Shown: one piece after another, positions 3,083-9,370 of the stretch
How positions within the stretch are numbered: the first letter of the stretch is position 1
How the letters are laid out: every line of letters begins with the position of its first letter
DNA from: Bacteroidia bacterium
Lineage (GTDB): Bacteria > Bacteroidota > Bacteroidia > Flavobacteriales_D > Sanyastnellaceae
DNA length: 64,000 bases
Direction of reading: 5' to 3'
Assembly: GCA_030427925.1 (NCBI GenBank)
Contig: JAUICJ010000005.1
Span: 1 to 64,000 of the forward strand
Made by a program: the position numbers and the translations under genes
The notes under the pieces: generated by a model
Databases searched by the model: none
What the model was told of the DNA's origin: nothing
The model's input: the letters and a program-made list of their open reading frames with translations, nothing else

Positions 3083-3419
3083 GGATCAGGGCAGATTGGA
3101 TGATGAAACGAACGCCGTAGGGAATTTCGATGCTGAAACTCGACCCGCGGCCGGGGGTTACGCCCAAGGTAAGGCGCGTGTGCTTCCAGTATTCGAACTG
3201 GTCCTTTGCCATGTAAAACGGGTGGCCACCGTGGACTTCGCCCAGCAACACGTCGGAATCGCCGACCTTGAATTCGCCGCGCGGGAAGCACATCGGCTGG
3301 CTCCCGTCGCAGCACCCACCGGACTGATGAAACATGAGGGGACCGTGGTCCGCGACCAACCGGTCGATCCATACTGCGGCCTCTTCCGTCCAGGCCAGGC
3401 GTTGCACCGTTGCATTCAT
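3072..3419 (-). CDS. DUF779 family protein
   Basis: 115 residues. The sequence matches the small DUF779 family: an N-terminal stretch (RLVADHGPLMFHQSGGCCDG), a CC pair followed by SQPMC, and the central FYMAKDQFEYWKHT. The biochemical role of the family is not established, but it is typically encoded beside acetaldehyde/aldehyde dehydrogenases of the ExaC type, exactly as here. The cysteines in GGCCDG and PMC could bind metal; that is inference. It sits between the aldehyde dehydrogenase (after a hairpin) and acs, overlapping acs by 11 bases, so it is probably cotranslated with acs. Confidence 0.9.
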   Translation of the reverse strand: MNATVQRLAWTEEAAVWIDRLVADHGPLMFHQSGGCCDGSQPMCFPRGEFKVGDSDVLLGEVHGGHPFYMAKDQFEYWKHTRLTLGVTPGRGSSFSIEIPYGVRFIIQSALIHEA

Positions 3420-3431
3420 GTTGCTGAAGTT

Positions 3432-3467
3432 AAAAAAAGGGGGACGAGCCGAAGCGCCGCCCCCCCC
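3432..3467 (-). terminator. Intrinsic terminator or attenuator after the aldehyde dehydrogenase
   Basis: On the minus strand a G-run (complement of 3460-3467) pairs with a C-run (complement of 3439-3443) around a TTCG loop and is followed by seven T residues (complement of 3432-3438). It lies between the aldehyde dehydrogenase stop and the DUF779 start. It should therefore reduce read-through into DUF779-acs, or separate the two transcription units. Confidence 0.75.
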
Positions 3468-3486
3468 TCTTGCAGGTTCGCGTTGA

Positions 3487-5010
3487 TCAGAAGAAACCGA
3501 GCTTCTCCTTGCTGTAGGAGATGAGCATGTTCTTGGTTTGGCGGTAGTGGTTGAGCATCATCTTGTGCGTCTCCCGGCCAAATCCACTCTTCTTGTACCC
3601 CCCGAACGGCGCATGCGCTGGATAAGCGTGGTAGCAGTTCACCCACACGCGCCCCGCCTCGATCGCCCGCGGCAACACGTACAGCTCATGCGCATCGCGC
3701 GTCCAAACGCCCGCACCCAAGCCGTACATCGTGTCGTTCGCAATCTCGATGGCTTCCTCGAGCGTCTTGAACGTGGTCACGCACGTCACCGGCCCGAAGA
3801 TCTCCTCCTGGAACACGCGCATCTTGTTGTGGCCCTTGAGGATGGTGGGCTGGATGTAGTACCCGCCGTCGAGTTCCCCTTCGAGCTGGGCGGGAGCGCC
3901 GCCGGTCAGGACTTCCGCGCCTTCCTGCTTGCCGATCTCGATGTAGTTCAGGATCTTCTCGTATTGGTCGTTCGAGGCCTGCGCCCCCATCATCGTGCTG
4001 GCGTCGAGCGGGTGCCCCATTTTGATGGCTTTCGTCCGCGCGATGACCCGTTCCATGAAGGGCTCGTAAATGTCCTCGTGGACCAAAATCCGCGACGGGC
4101 ACGTGCACACTTCCCCCTGATTCAAGGCGAACATCACCGCCCCTTCGACGCATTTGTCCAAAAACGCATCGTCCGCATCCATCACGCTCGGCATGAAGAT
4201 GTTCGGGCTCTTGCCGCCGAGCTCCATCGTGACGGGCACGAGGTTTTCCGAGGCGTACTGCATGATGAGGCGTCCGGTCGTGGTTTCGCCCGTGAAGGCC
4301 ACCTTCGCCACGCGCGGGCTCGTCGCCAACGGCTTGCCCGCTTCAATGCCGAAGCCGGTCACCACGTTCAGCACGCCCGCCGGCAGCAAATCGCCGATGA
4401 GCTCCATCAGGACCATGAGGCTCGTCGGCGTTTGTTCCGCCGGCTTCACCACGGTGCAGCAGCCCGCGGCCAGCGCCGGAGCGATCTTCCAAGCGGCCAT
4501 CAGGATCGGGAAGTTCCACGGAATGATTTGGGCCACCACGCCGAGCGGCTCGTGCAGGTTGATGCTCACGGTCGTGGCGTCGTGCTCCGAAATCGAACCC
4601 TCCTCCGAGCGCAACACGCCCGCGAAGTAGCGGAAGTGGTCGATGGCGAGCGGAAGGTCGGCCGCCGTGGTTTCGCGGATGCCCTTGCCGTTGTCGGTGG
4701 CTTCAATGGCCGCGAGCAGGTCCAGGTTTTCCTCCATCCGGTCCGCGATGCGCAGCAGGATGTTCGAGCGGGAAGCCGCCGCCATCGTGCTCCATGCCGG
4801 GAACGCCTTGTGCGCCGCGTCGAGCGCCTTTTCGATGTCGGTCGCATTGCCGCGCGCCGCTTCGCACCAAACCTGGCCCGTGATGGGGCTGATGTTTTCA
4901 AAGTAGGCGCCGCTCGAAGGGGCGACCCATTCGCCGCCGATGTAGTGATCGTAGCGGGCTTTCACTTTTGGCAACGCGATGGTTGCGGGTTGTTCCAAGG
5001 TAGCTTCCAT
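3487..5010 (-). CDS. NAD-dependent aldehyde dehydrogenase (ExaC/AldB-like)
   Basis: 507 residues from the start [17 protein letters not shown]; the open frame extends further upstream but runs into the divergent regulator. It oxidises aldehydes, probably acetaldehyde, to the acid with NAD(P). Visible features are [19 protein letters not shown] (cofactor-binding region), the general-base segment [12 protein letters not shown], and the catalytic cysteine in [11 protein letters not shown]. The CTCPSR form and the C-terminal [21 protein letters not shown] are typical of the acetaldehyde dehydrogenase ExaC/AldB/AcoD group. It lies upstream of DUF779 and acs and is divergent from an AraC regulator, suggesting an inducible alcohol or acetoin carbon route. 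Confidence 0.93.
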
Positions 5011-5130
5011 GGGGAGGTGAGTTGGTAATGGGTTGTGGCACAATCGCCAAGGCCAAATCACGCCCCCCTTCCCCGAAAAAAATTTCGATTTTGTTTCAAA
5101 AAATGCGCAACCTGTGCTCAATCGTGTCCG

Positions 5131-6087
5131 ATGCACACATTTTGGTTCATCTTTCGACTCGTGAAGCACAAATTGACCCCCGTCGGGCTCTCCTCCCCGG
5201 AACACATGCAAACCCTCGTCGAACACCGGCGCGTAGTCGACATGGAGACGTGCCAGCTCAACGTGTTCGAAACACACGAACGCGCGAGCCAGGTGCAGTT
5301 GGAATTTGGCGACCTCTTGCTGACGAGCATGCTGCGCGGAAAGAAGGTGATGCACCTGCCCGGGCGCGATGCATTCGACTACCTGCCCGGCGAATCGGTG
5401 GTGGTGCGGCCGAACGAGACGATGCTCATCGACTTTCCCGACGCCACGGCCGAAGAACCGACCCAGTGCATCGCCCTAGCGATGTCAAAGGACGCCATCA
5501 ACTCGACGCTGGACTTGCTGAACGAACAGTTTCCTTTGTTGGGGGAGCACGAGACGTGGCAAGTGAGTGGGGATTTGGTCCACCTCCACCAGGACGCGCA
5601 ACTGGTCGACGTCATCCAGCGCATCATCCGCGTGGGCCTTTACGAGCAGGGGCGCCAAAAGGACGCGCTCGCCTCCCTGACGCTGCAGGAGCTGCTCGTT
5701 CGGCTGATGCAAACCGGCGCGCGCAAACTCTTCGCGGAGGAGCACGGTTCGCTCGCCAGCCGCCATCCCCTCGGCGCCGTCGTGGACTACATCGATCACC
5801 ACCTGCACGAGCCGCTCGACTGCACGACGCTCGCGGGCATCGCGTGCATGAGCCGGCCGCACTTCCAGCGGAAGTTCAAGGAGGCGTTCGGCTGGACCCC
5901 GGCAGAATACGTGCAGCACGCGCGCCTCGAAACGGCCCGGAAGCTGCTCGTCGACGAAGCCCTCACCGTGAACGAAGTCGCCTACGCAGTGGGCTTTCGC
6001 GGCCCGAGCCCGTTCATCCGGGCCTTCCGCCAAAGCGAGGGCGTAACACCGAAGCGGTATCAAATGTCCCGTCGCGTAATTCACTGA
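5131..6087 (+). CDS. AraC family transcriptional regulator
   Basis: About 318 residues from ATG 5131. GTG 5161 is an equally plausible start, because homologues begin close to [14 protein letters not shown] 5206 is later but possible. The N-terminal part is a sensor domain beginning near [20 protein letters not shown]. The C-terminal ~100 residues carry two helix-turn-helix motifs ([20 protein letters not shown] and [20 protein letters not shown]) ending in VTPKRYQ, the AraC/XylS signature. It is divergent from the aldehyde dehydrogenase gene, with about 120-150 bases between the starts, so it most likely activates that operon in response to an alcohol or aldehyde. The inducer is not visible in the sequence. 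Confidence 0.9.
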
Positions 6088-6146: not shown

Positions 6147-6860
6147 ATGGGCAAGATCCGATTCTTCTTGTTGGTTTCGCTGATCTTGGCGGCGGCTTGG
6201 ACGGACCAAATCATGCCCCACCAAGCTCCCGTCCCCGCCCTCAATCCGCAGTTGACGGCGGTGCTTGCTTCATTCGACGCCACCCCGTTGAACATACAGC
6301 CCCAACGGCGCGCCGAATTGGACGCTCTGGCTGAATGGGCAGCGAACGAATGGCTGCGCCACGGAGCGGTTGACCTCACCTTCATCGGCACGCGCAACAG
6401 CCGAAGCAGCCAACTGGCGCAGTGGTGGGCGACTGCGGCGACGGCTCATTTCGGGTTGGAGGGAATCCATGCATACAGCGGCGGAACGGAGGCCACGGTC
6501 TTCCATGCCGAAACCGTGGCGGCACTTCGCAGGGCGGGGTTCGTCGTCGCGGAAGAAGGGACGGGAGCGACCCCGGTGTACCGGGTGCGGTGGAGCGACG
6601 AGGGCGCGGGCGCACCCGGATTCAGCAAGCGGTACACCGACCCGGTCAACCCCGCGACGGGCTTCGCCGCCGTGATGACGTGCAGCGACGCCGACGAAGG
6701 GTGTCCCGTTGTGGTCGGGGCGGCTGCGCGGTTTGTCCTGCCGCATGCCTGTGATGGGGCTTCGTTGGACGCCGCAGCTGGCGACGACCAGTGCCGCCAA
6801 ATCGGGCACGAAATGCATTACCTCATGGGGCGCGTGGCGGATTGGGTGGCGGCGAACTGA
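6147..6860 (+). CDS. Low-molecular-weight phosphatase/ArsC-fold protein lacking catalytic residues
   Basis: 237 residues. The body matches the Bacteroidota protein-tyrosine-phosphatase-like family related to LMW-PTP and arsenate reductase. Landmarks are the P-loop region TFIGTRNSRSSQLAQWW, then AVMTCSDADEGCPVVVGA and the C-terminal IGHEMHYLMGRV. The canonical P-loop is C-x5-R; here the nucleophile position is Gly81 and the arginine position is Ser87. The region that should hold the catalytic Asp-Pro reads LPHACDGASLD. It is therefore predicted to be catalytically inactive. The N-terminus MGKIRFFLLVSLILAAAW looks like a signal peptide or membrane anchor, unusual for this cytosolic family; ATG 6213 is an alternative, unanchored start. 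It is followed after 42 bases by a TPR-HTH regulator. Confidence 0.75.
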   Translation: MGKIRFFLLVSLILAAAWTDQIMPHQAPVPALNPQLTAVLASFDATPLNIQPQRRAELDALAEWAANEWLRHGAVDLTFIGTRNSRSSQLAQWWATAATAHFGLEGIHAYSGGTEATVFHAETVAALRRAGFVVAEEGTGATPVYRVRWSDEGAGAPGFSKRYTDPVNPATGFAAVMTCSDADEGCPVVVGAAARFVLPHACDGASLDAAAGDDQCRQIGHEMHYLMGRVADWVAAN

Positions 6861-6902: not shown

Positions 6903-8534
6903 ATGTTCAACGCTTCGCGGTTCGTGATGGGTGGGTTCGTGCTGTTCGCTGCATCGGCGATGGGAGCGGACCGCATGGACAGTTTGTTGCGGGTTTGGCG
7001 GGATGAGGGGCGCGGCTTTGAAGAGCGGCTGAATGCGCTCAACGAGGGGTATCGCGCATTTCATGCCGTGCATCCCGACACGTTTTTCGTGGAGCTGGAG
7101 CGGTTGCAGCGGATGGCCGAGGAGGCCGATCGGCCCTTGATTTGGGCTGAAAGCCTTCTCCGGAAAGGGGGATTGCTCAACTACCAAGGCCAAAACCAAG
7201 CCGCGCTCCTCGCCTACGCTGAAGCCGAAGCCCCCCTCATCCAGCTCGGGGACAGCCTCCGACTCGGGACGCTGGCGGCAAACCGAGGCAACGTCCACGC
7301 CGCCATGGGCGATTACATCCTCGCCTTGGAGCAGTTTTCCAACGCGCTGCGATGCTACGAAGCCGTGGGGCACGTGCCCGGCCAGCACACGACCCGGATG
7401 GCGCTGGGATCGATGTTCATGCTGCTGAACGATGACACACGCGCCCTGTCCTATTACGAGGCGTTGGAGCCGGAATTGCGGGAACGCCCCGAATCGGAAT
7501 ACCAGCTGGGCCTGTTGTACACGAACCTGGGCTGGTGCCACCGTGAACTCGGGGAACTCGAATTGGCCCAGCGTTTCTTGGAGCTGGGGCTGGCGTCGCA
7601 TCGGAAATTCCAATCCGGCTTTCACGAGGCCAAATGCCTTGCCAACCTTGCGCGCGTCCACCTCGACGCCGGTGAATGGAGCCAGGCGGAATCCCGAGCC
7701 CTCGAAAGCATCGCTTTGTACCAGCAACTTGGGGCGGAGCGCTCCGGGTTCGAAACCGAAGTCCTGTTGGTGGAGGTTGAGCTGCGCGCGGGGCGTCCTC
7801 AATCCGCATTGGATTTGGGGAAACCACTGCTTCCCAAATTGACTGAGCCTTCACCCCTTCAAACCCTGTACAAAGCGCTTTACGATGCGCACAAAGCTCT
7901 GGGTCAAAATGCCTCTGCGCTGTACATGCTTGAGCAACACCAGGCTTTTCGGGACAGCGTCCTCGCCTTGAAGAACAGCCACATCGTAGCACGCGTTGCC
8001 TACGAAAAGGACGTGGAGCACCAACTGCACGTGGTGCGGATGGAGGGGCGCCGGGAGCAGGACCGACTGCGCATTCAGCAACTGCGCCTCGTTTTGGGCT
8101 TGGTGATCGGGTTTGGTGCGGCGATTTCGTTGCTCATTGCCTACTTCGTTCGTTTTCGGGCCGACCAGCGGTTGCGGCGGAAGGCGCTGCTGCACGAAAT
8201 TGATTCGCTGAAATCTGCGTTGAAGCAGGCCGACTTGGCGAATCCGGAGGCGGGCGGTTTGGACCGAGAACAAATCGAACACCGGTTGGGGCGCACATTG
8301 AACCCCACGGACTGGAAGGTGTTGAACATCCTGCTCGAAGATCCGACGGTAACGAACGCAGTCATCGCCGAGCGGGCCTTCATGAGCGTCGACGGCATCG
8401 GCTCGTCCTTGCGGAGGATGTACCAGTACTTTGAAGTGACGGAGACGAAGTACAAGAAAATCGCCTTGTTGCGCGCCGCCATGACGTTGTCCGCTTCAGA
8501 TTCTGGGGAAGGTGCTGGTTTTCAAAGTGCATGA
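6903..8534 (+). CDS. TPR-transmembrane-HTH signalling protein
   Basis: 543 residues. There is a signal-like N-terminus (FVMGGFVLFAASAMGA). Tetratricopeptide-type helical repeats cover about residues 50-390 (for example YQLGLLYTNLGWCHRELGE and AGEWSQAESRALESIALYQQ). One transmembrane helix is at about 395-417 (LVLGLVIGFGAAISLLIAYF). A cytosolic coiled linker follows, then a C-terminal LuxR-like helix-turn-helix region (LNPTDWKVLNILLEDPTVTN, with VDGIGSSLRRMYQYF). This TPR-membrane-HTH layout is common in Bacteroidota and is thought to link an envelope signal to transcription; the target genes are unknown. The start is preceded by TAGCTTTA, a plausible -7 element, about 10 bases upstream. Confidence 0.8.
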   Translation: MFNASRFVMGGFVLFAASAMGADRMDSLLRVWRDEGRGFEERLNALNEGYRAFHAVHPDTFFVELERLQRMAEEADRPLIWAESLLRKGGLLNYQGQNQAALLAYAEAEAPLIQLGDSLRLGTLAANRGNVHAAMGDYILALEQFSNALRCYEAVGHVPGQHTTRMALGSMFMLLNDDTRALSYYEALEPELRERPESEYQLGLLYTNLGWCHRELGELELAQRFLELGLASHRKFQSGFHEAKCLANLARVHLDAGEWSQAESRALESIALYQQLGAERSGFETEVLLVEVELRAGRPQSALDLGKPLLPKLTEPSPLQTLYKALYDAHKALGQNASALYMLEQHQAFRDSVLALKNSHIVARVAYEKDVEHQLHVVRMEGRREQDRLRIQQLRLVLGLVIGFGAAISLLIAYFVRFRADQRLRRKALLHEIDSLKSALKQADLANPEAGGLDREQIEHRLGRTLNPTDWKVLNILLEDPTVTNAVIAERAFMSVDGIGSSLRRMYQYFEVTETKYKKIALLRAAMTLSASDSGEGAGFQSA

Positions 8535-8591
8535 GCCGAATCGCGCCCAACGTTCACGTGCACGGGTGCGCCCCATTCACCCCTAGACGTG

Positions 8592-8622
8592 TTGCTCAAC
8601 TCCCGTTACATCCCCACCTTGC
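8592..8622 (+). promoter_or_regulatory. Bacteroidota-type promoter of the T9SS cargo gene at 8627
   Basis: TTG at 8592-8594, a 20-base spacer, then CACCTTGC at 8615-8622 (consensus TAnnTTTG, two to three mismatches). The ATG is only four bases past the box, so the transcript would be nearly leaderless. The spacing fits the -33/-7 architecture of Bacteroidota sigma-ABfr promoters. Confidence 0.45.
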
Positions 8623-8626
8623 GGAC

Positions 8627-9370
8627 ATGAAAATCACCTTTCACCCCCTTGCTCAACGAGCGTCGCTCGTGATGAGTTTTGCCTTTTTCGGAATGGTTCA
8701 TTGGGCCGCTGCCCAAGTGACCACGTCGGTGGATTGCGTCCTCATGGGACTCGTCGTCAACGTGGGATCCCAGGAGAACGACATCAGCCTTTATCACCCG
8801 GGAGGCTATTTGACCTCGCCGCCGAGCGAGAACACCATGGAATGGCTGTTCACGGATTCCGAGGGCAACGTCATCTACGAAGAAACGTTGGTGAACGAGA
8901 ACTTTGTTTCCTTCAATCACTCGGTGCCGTTGATGGACACGATTTTCGTTTCGGTGCTGTTGACGAACGATTCTGCGGTGCTGAATGGGAACCCGGTGGC
9001 GTGCTGGATTGAGGATTACTTGGTTTGGGTCGAAACGGAAGTGATTCCGGGGACGTTCGTGGGCGCTTGGACGTTGGGGGGCAGCGTGGGGCAGGACGTG
9101 AGCGAAACTACGGGGATGACGGCCTTGGCTCCCGCGGCGCTTGAGCTCTACCCGCAGCCGGCGAGCGATCGCTTGACCTTGGCGGGGTTGCCCGCTTCGG
9201 GGCAGTTGGTGATCCGGGATTTGGCCGGCCAAACCGTTCACCTCCAGCAAGTCACTTCTCCGCAGGTGGTGCTGGACCTCGCAGCGCTGCAGCCGGGGAT
9301 GTACGTGGTCCAAATCCTGAACCGCGCCGGAGAACCGCTCCATGCCCGCCGCATGGTCGTGGCTCGCTGA
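8627..9370 (+). CDS. T9SS-sorted exported protein of unknown function
   Basis: 247 residues from ATG 8627, chosen because it directly precedes a signal peptide (AQRASLVMSFAFFGMVHWAAAQ). The frame is open further upstream, to 8531. The middle part is a beta-rich region without a recognised domain. The C-terminal ~75 residues are a T9SS type A sorting domain: LELYPQPASDRLTLAG, VIRDLAGQTV, and LQPGMYVVQIL followed by a basic end. Such proteins are exported through Sec, cross the outer membrane by the T9SS, and are released or attached to A-LPS after domain removal. It lies 20 bases before an EF-hand exported protein and may share its transcript. Confidence 0.8.
   Translation: MKITFHPLAQRASLVMSFAFFGMVHWAAAQVTTSVDCVLMGLVVNVGSQENDISLYHPGGYLTSPPSENTMEWLFTDSEGNVIYEETLVNENFVSFNHSVPLMDTIFVSVLLTNDSAVLNGNPVACWIEDYLVWVETEVIPGTFVGAWTLGGSVGQDVSETTGMTALAPAALELYPQPASDRLTLAGLPASGQLVIRDLAGQTVHLQQVTSPQVVLDLAALQPGMYVVQILNRAGEPLHARRMVVAR

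Follow-up and report, generated by a model that had tools for sequence, protein, structure and literature searches.

The open reading frame (ORF) at positions 6147–6860 of the window, the whole stretch of 64,000 nucleotides that was analysed, lies 59 bp from the upstream AraC-family gene and 42 bp from the downstream TPR-HTH gene. Its reading frame is normal and its GC3 of 0.77 is similar to that of the adjacent genes. The locus comprises the following genes and features.

6147–6860, plus strand: probable catalytically dead, exported paralogue with the ArsC/LMW-PTP fold, 237 amino acids, as judged from sequence, alignments and a structure model.
6147–6215, plus strand: predicted signal peptide or anchor, approximately residues 1–23, without a lipobox Cys, identified by a crude signal test and homologous to a 20-residue start in a same-genus genome.
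6387–6410, plus strand: degenerate P-loop GTRNSRSS, residues 81–88, with Gly81 for Cys, Arg83 for His and Ser87 for Arg.
6678–6707, plus strand: retained redox segment TCSDADEGCP, residues 178–187, with Cys179 and Cys186 at the places of Cys82 and Cys89 of pI258 ArsC.
6738–6791, plus strand: degenerate D-loop region, residues 198–215, lacking, through deletion, the Tyr and the general-acid Asp of Y-x-D-P-K.
5035–6087, plus strand: AraC-family regulator, an upstream neighbour only; the synteny shared with the same-genus genome stops at 6076.
6903–8534, plus strand: TPR-HTH regulator, the downstream neighbour, whose conserved partner is the gene at 8531–9370.
8531–9370, plus strand: secreted protein with a Por secretion tail, found beside TPR-HTH at 8 of the 11 other loci examined.

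The NCBIfam arsenate-reductase models match the ORF only far under their cut-offs (arsC_pI258_fam, 13.9 bits against the 174.3 needed), and Pfam LMWPc is absent from the domain matches listed for it. A match to PF08940 (DUF1918) in the domain scan was under the cut-off and was disregarded. Scans for promoters, terminators and repeats gave no signal clearly exceeding chance.

Catalytic residues and predicted fold

Residues 80–88 of the window protein read I-G-T-R-N-S-R-S-S. The phmmer alignment to pI258 ArsC places Gly81 on Cys10, Ser87 on Arg16, Cys179 on Cys82 and Cys186 on Cys89. In a set of 128 homologous ORFs from 126 loci, the window ORF included, the P-loop is CTHNSRRS in 125, CTENSRRS in one (L021), CIHNSRRS in one (L113) and GTRNSRSS in the window copy, which is the only 1 of the 128 without the nucleophilic Cys and oxyanion Arg of the C-x5-R loop. 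The general-acid Asp of the DP loop is also missing, as the Tyr and Asp columns of Y-x-D-P-K are deleted and the Lys is replaced by His200. The second and third redox cysteines of thioredoxin-coupled ArsC are present as Cys179 and Cys186, in columns that are invariant in the family alignment; the other two cysteines of the protein are Cys202 and Cys216. These alignments bear out the preliminary description, made from the DNA letters, of a phosphatase-fold protein in which the C-x5-R Cys has become Gly and the Arg Ser, the DP loop is changed and the TCSDADEGCP segment is kept. A sequencing error at the Gly and Ser codons, which that description had raised against its own reading, is rejected, as is an assembly error: the P-loop substitutions affect three different codons, and residues are deleted in the D-loop, more than a single sequencing error could produce.

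In pI258 ArsC, the residue that attacks arsenate is Cys10, and the disulfide reduced by thioredoxin is the one carried by Cys82 and Cys89 (part of PMC6193951); in D. indicus ArsC2, Arg21 of the C-x5-R loop touches the bound arsenic species (part of PMC10483234). By this mechanism, ArsC chemistry could not be expected to start without the Cys and Arg, whatever the relay pair does. Taken together, sequence and mechanism make it nearly certain that the window protein has lost catalysis.

The Rossmann-like LMW-PTP fold is predicted to be retained. An AlphaFold2 model calculated from a 79-sequence alignment has a mean pLDDT of 87.5, with the input alignment consisting of active relatives that bias the model toward their fold. 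At E ≤ 0.001 the model matched 14 PDB entries, with ArsC structures ranking best. Foldseek and VIA-align placed D. indicus ArsC2 (8p5n) first, with a Z of 15.0, and pI258 ArsC at a Z of approximately 14, with LMW phosphatases ranking lower (YwlE at Z 13.9 and below), matches within 1 Z of each other being tied.

Relatives, export signal and genomic context

The source genome (2.95 Mb, 51 contigs, 99.5% complete) carries a second copy, L002 (C8:18645–19280), which is 46% identical to the window ORF and has an intact P-loop, FICTHNSRRSH. This paralogue passes Pfam LMWPc (29.6 bits against 23.2), does not pass arsC_pI258_fam, and is followed by an arsenite exporter gene, ACR3 (398 bits, with 283 required), and by a gene for a regulator of the ArsR family. 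With these two proteins as queries, no match was found across the whole window, and the window copy has no such arsenic-operon neighbour there. ACR3 or ArsR lies within 3 kb at 88 of 125 loci with intact members, made up of 69 of 80 named loci (the best 80 of 140) and 19 of 45 loci from the family and order searches, whose flanks covered no more than about 1.5 kb in either direction.

A quick tree placed the window ORF as sister to ten sequences of the genus g3 (SH-aLRT 84), with an end branch of 1.06 compared with a median end branch of 0.29. Neither ACR3 nor ArsR was found within the examined flanks of these sister-clade loci (0 of 10). The signal test, a crude hydrophobicity and lipobox check in which a few sequences (L053, L085 and L086) start at a far-upstream in-frame ATG, classed 24 of the 128 ORFs as lipoprotein-like and 23 more, including the window ORF, as signal-like. 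By the same crude test, nine of the ten members of the sister clade are lipoprotein-like and the tenth is signal-like, whereas the window copy is without the lipobox Cys. Being common to the nearest relatives, the N-terminal signal is not newly gained, contrary to the gain of a signal or anchor first proposed for this protein.

Intact, lipoprotein-like ArsC-like sequences with neither ACR3 nor ArsR in the examined flanks include those of genus g3 (L003, L004, L007, L008, L032–L035, L037 and L038, with L037 signal-like only) and others (L012, L017, L018, L041–L043, L045 and L046). At most of the g3 loci read, the ArsC-like gene adjoins a Nramp-transporter-like gene (at L033 the match, at 39.5 bits, is below the cut-off of 50). 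The g3 proteins and similar intact ones may be extracytoplasmic, lipid-anchored ArsC-like enzymes encoded outside ars operons. L051 (Marivirga atlantica), L009/L072 and L063 are lipoprotein-like ArsC sequences inside an ars cluster, with ACR3 and ArsR both within 3 kb, an odd setting for an enzyme thought to be cytoplasmic. The divergent L021 (G029:C53:11328–11885, minus strand) is lipoprotein-like, with the P-loop CTENSRRS and an altered redox segment, VLVCDQAQEACP; it drops 12 conserved columns yet retains the catalytic Cys and Arg and a DP loop.

The preliminary description had also called for a search for the same substitutions in related genomes. No orthologue carrying them was found among the matches listed for 114 family genomes and 399 order-level genomes, in the best 80 of 140 loci from a genome-contig search, or among 3 plasmid records; in the family and order searches a close orthologue would outrank the g3 matches, which are the best after the window ORF itself. 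The sole same-genus genome compared, G001 (87% complete, a draft of 420 contigs), has a truncated start only. It matches window positions 3085–6076 at 81% DNA identity, ending just inside the 3′ end of the AraC gene, directly after which it encodes MNAVRFFSLMGLIALAAWMD, aligning with MGKIRFFLLVSLILAAAWTD of the window protein from residue one with a score of 57. None of 5,000 shuffles reached this score (maximum 42), and 14 family signal peptides scored at most 31. After approximately 20 homologous codons the short ORF of G001 stops and the ArsC body is missing; a second HSP, covering residues 49–84 of the window protein, is weak and in another frame and was set aside. The next gene in G001 is a convergent sulfotransferase/DinB gene, the homologue of which lies on another contig in the window's genome. 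Probably, then, the genus ancestor already had the start of this gene at the same location, and the sister copy is missing the ArsC body, although a misassembly in the G001 draft is a possible cause of that absence. We infer that the role of the gene is expendable within the genus.

Strong homologues of the TPR-HTH gene occur in other genomes of the family. Within flanks of at most 1.5 kb, neither ArsC nor AraC lies beside any of the 11 other TPR-HTH loci examined (0 of 11), and 8 of these 11 keep a gene like that at 8531–9370, encoding the secreted protein. The conserved unit is the pair of TPR-HTH and secreted-protein genes (6903–9370), and the dead ArsC gene is outside it. The TPR-HTH regulator, proposed earlier as a partner, is accordingly not one on this evidence, and a functional link between it and the ArsC-like gene is unsupported.

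Distribution of losses and selection

The window ORF retains 44 and loses 14 of the 58 columns whose conservation among the other sequences reaches 85% or more. The losses are uneven, affecting 10 of 17 columns in the P- and D-loops and 4 of 41 elsewhere (Fisher p = 2 × 10^-4, or 0.0013 without the two deleted columns), with the division into loops drawn after the losses had been seen. The P-loop alone contributes 3 of its 8 conserved columns, and the clustering depends mainly on the D-loop, where the alignment is unsure around the deletion. Among the 127 other sequences pooled, 48 of 251 losses are in the loops and 203 elsewhere, compared with 10 of 14 in the window ORF (Fisher p = 6 × 10^-5). 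Divergent active sequences have 2 of 12 (L029), 1 of 12 (L021) and 1 of 10 (L044) of their losses in the loops; the exception among active sequences is L113, with 4 of 6. Such a distribution, with the rejection of neutrality described next, would suit a pseudoenzyme better than a wholly neutral relic.

A codon model of 12 sequences gave an ω of 0.10 on the window branch (0.29 with the branch length capped at 3) and a background of 0.07, dS on this branch being saturated and the branch also spanning the time before inactivation. The hypothesis ω = 1 was rejected on the branch (2ΔlnL = 13.8), with values of 9.8 when capped, 9.3 when capped without the catalytic loops and 10.7 when capped and restricted to residues 48 onward (p = 0.0002–0.002 across variants). 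Constraint is seen for the branch as a whole, before and after inactivation together. Together, the clustered losses and the codon test suggest that the fold was constrained as the active site was lost.

Interpretation and comparison with known systems

The gene would be best explained as a lineage-specific paralogue of an exported ArsC-like enzyme that has lost the nucleophilic Cys, the oxyanion Arg and the general-acid loop; because of these losses, neither arsenate reductase nor phosphatase activity is expected. By prediction the protein is exported and still folds, and any present role would be non-catalytic. Such a role could be binding through the retained surface, or thiol chemistry by the surviving Cys179 and Cys186, which in an oxidising periplasm may form just a structural disulfide. 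On balance, we favour a folded, non-catalytic exported paralogue with a minor or lineage-specific role over a relic, by a judgement somewhat better than even; the truncation in the sister and the lack of orthologues with the same changes argue that the role is expendable.

The gene could instead be a decaying relic, a redundant copy from which selection was lost recently and in which a stop codon is still to come. This is a substantial possibility, if not the probable one. It is consistent with what G001 has at the corresponding position, a bare 20-residue start that runs into a stop, with the intact copy L002 elsewhere in the genome, with the break in synteny at 6147–6860, where the sister's next gene is found elsewhere in the window's genome, and with the long branch in the tree. 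The uneven losses, the rejection of ω = 1 over the branch, and the normal reading frame and GC3 argue against it. The conserved fold without chemistry put forward in the preliminary description stands to the extent that the fold is predicted to be retained and the losses are concentrated in the catalytic loops; the sensor role attached to it does not. A sensor of phosphate, arsenate, sulfate or a phospho-ligand in the envelope, coupled to the TPR-HTH regulator, would draw on the P-loop backbone motif, Arg86 and the new Arg83, all of which remain, and on the position of the two genes on the same strand, 42 bp apart. It is very unlikely, as the C-x5-R arginine is Ser87 and the TPR-HTH gene keeps company elsewhere with the secreted-protein gene and not with ArsC; moreover, STYX is revived by a single Gly-to-Cys change, a sign that its site is otherwise intact, whereas that of the window protein is not (part of PMC10211241). 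Beyond the proximity of the genes, the sensor proposal has no support. An enzyme that still works with another nucleophile, for example Cys202 or Cys179, is just as improbable: four cysteines are available and some pseudoenzymes prove to have migrated residues (part of PMC10211241), but the nucleophile, the oxyanion Arg and the acid loop have been lost jointly. Oxyanion chemistry might also have given way, in the periplasm, to a role resting on thiols alone or on binding, in which Cys179 and Cys186 would act as a redox switch or offer a docking site to a thioredoxin-like protein of the envelope, an unlikely course but a little less so than these last two.

With a folded, non-catalytic paralogue as the favoured reading, the practical upshot is a warning against annotating 6147–6860 as a phosphatase, an arsenate reductase or a sensor. 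A search of the open-access literature turned up no account of a catalytically dead ArsC-fold protein and no paper pairing 'arsenate reductase' with 'pseudoenzyme', and a clear case would add the ArsC fold to the folds with pseudoenzymes. The intact, lipid-anchored-looking relatives outside ars operons may be the more interesting question.

The predicted fold resembles that of the thioredoxin-coupled ArsC proteins of S. aureus pI258, B. subtilis and D. indicus (ArsC2), with Z-scores of 13.8–15.0 and an rmsd of 2.0–2.6 Å over 125–131 residues, and the relay cysteines at the Cys82 and Cys89 places are shared with them. Unlike these enzymes, to which its identity is only about 20%, the window protein has no nucleophilic Cys10, no Arg16 and no acid loop, and its N terminus adds an export signal and a helical extension. 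The same extension, together with direct homology, links it to the intact 'protein-tyrosine-phosphatase' family of Bacteroidota ars clusters, which includes L002 and the members of which retain the C-x5-R Cys and Arg and mostly Y-x-D-P-K, whereas the window copy does not. Another parallel is STYX, a pseudophosphatase of the HCX5R loop in which, as in the window protein, the Cys of the C-x5-R motif has become Gly. STYX belongs to the dual-specificity class and regains activity through one Gly-to-Cys change, as part of PMC10211241 describes, whereas the window protein has lost the arginine and the acid loop as well.
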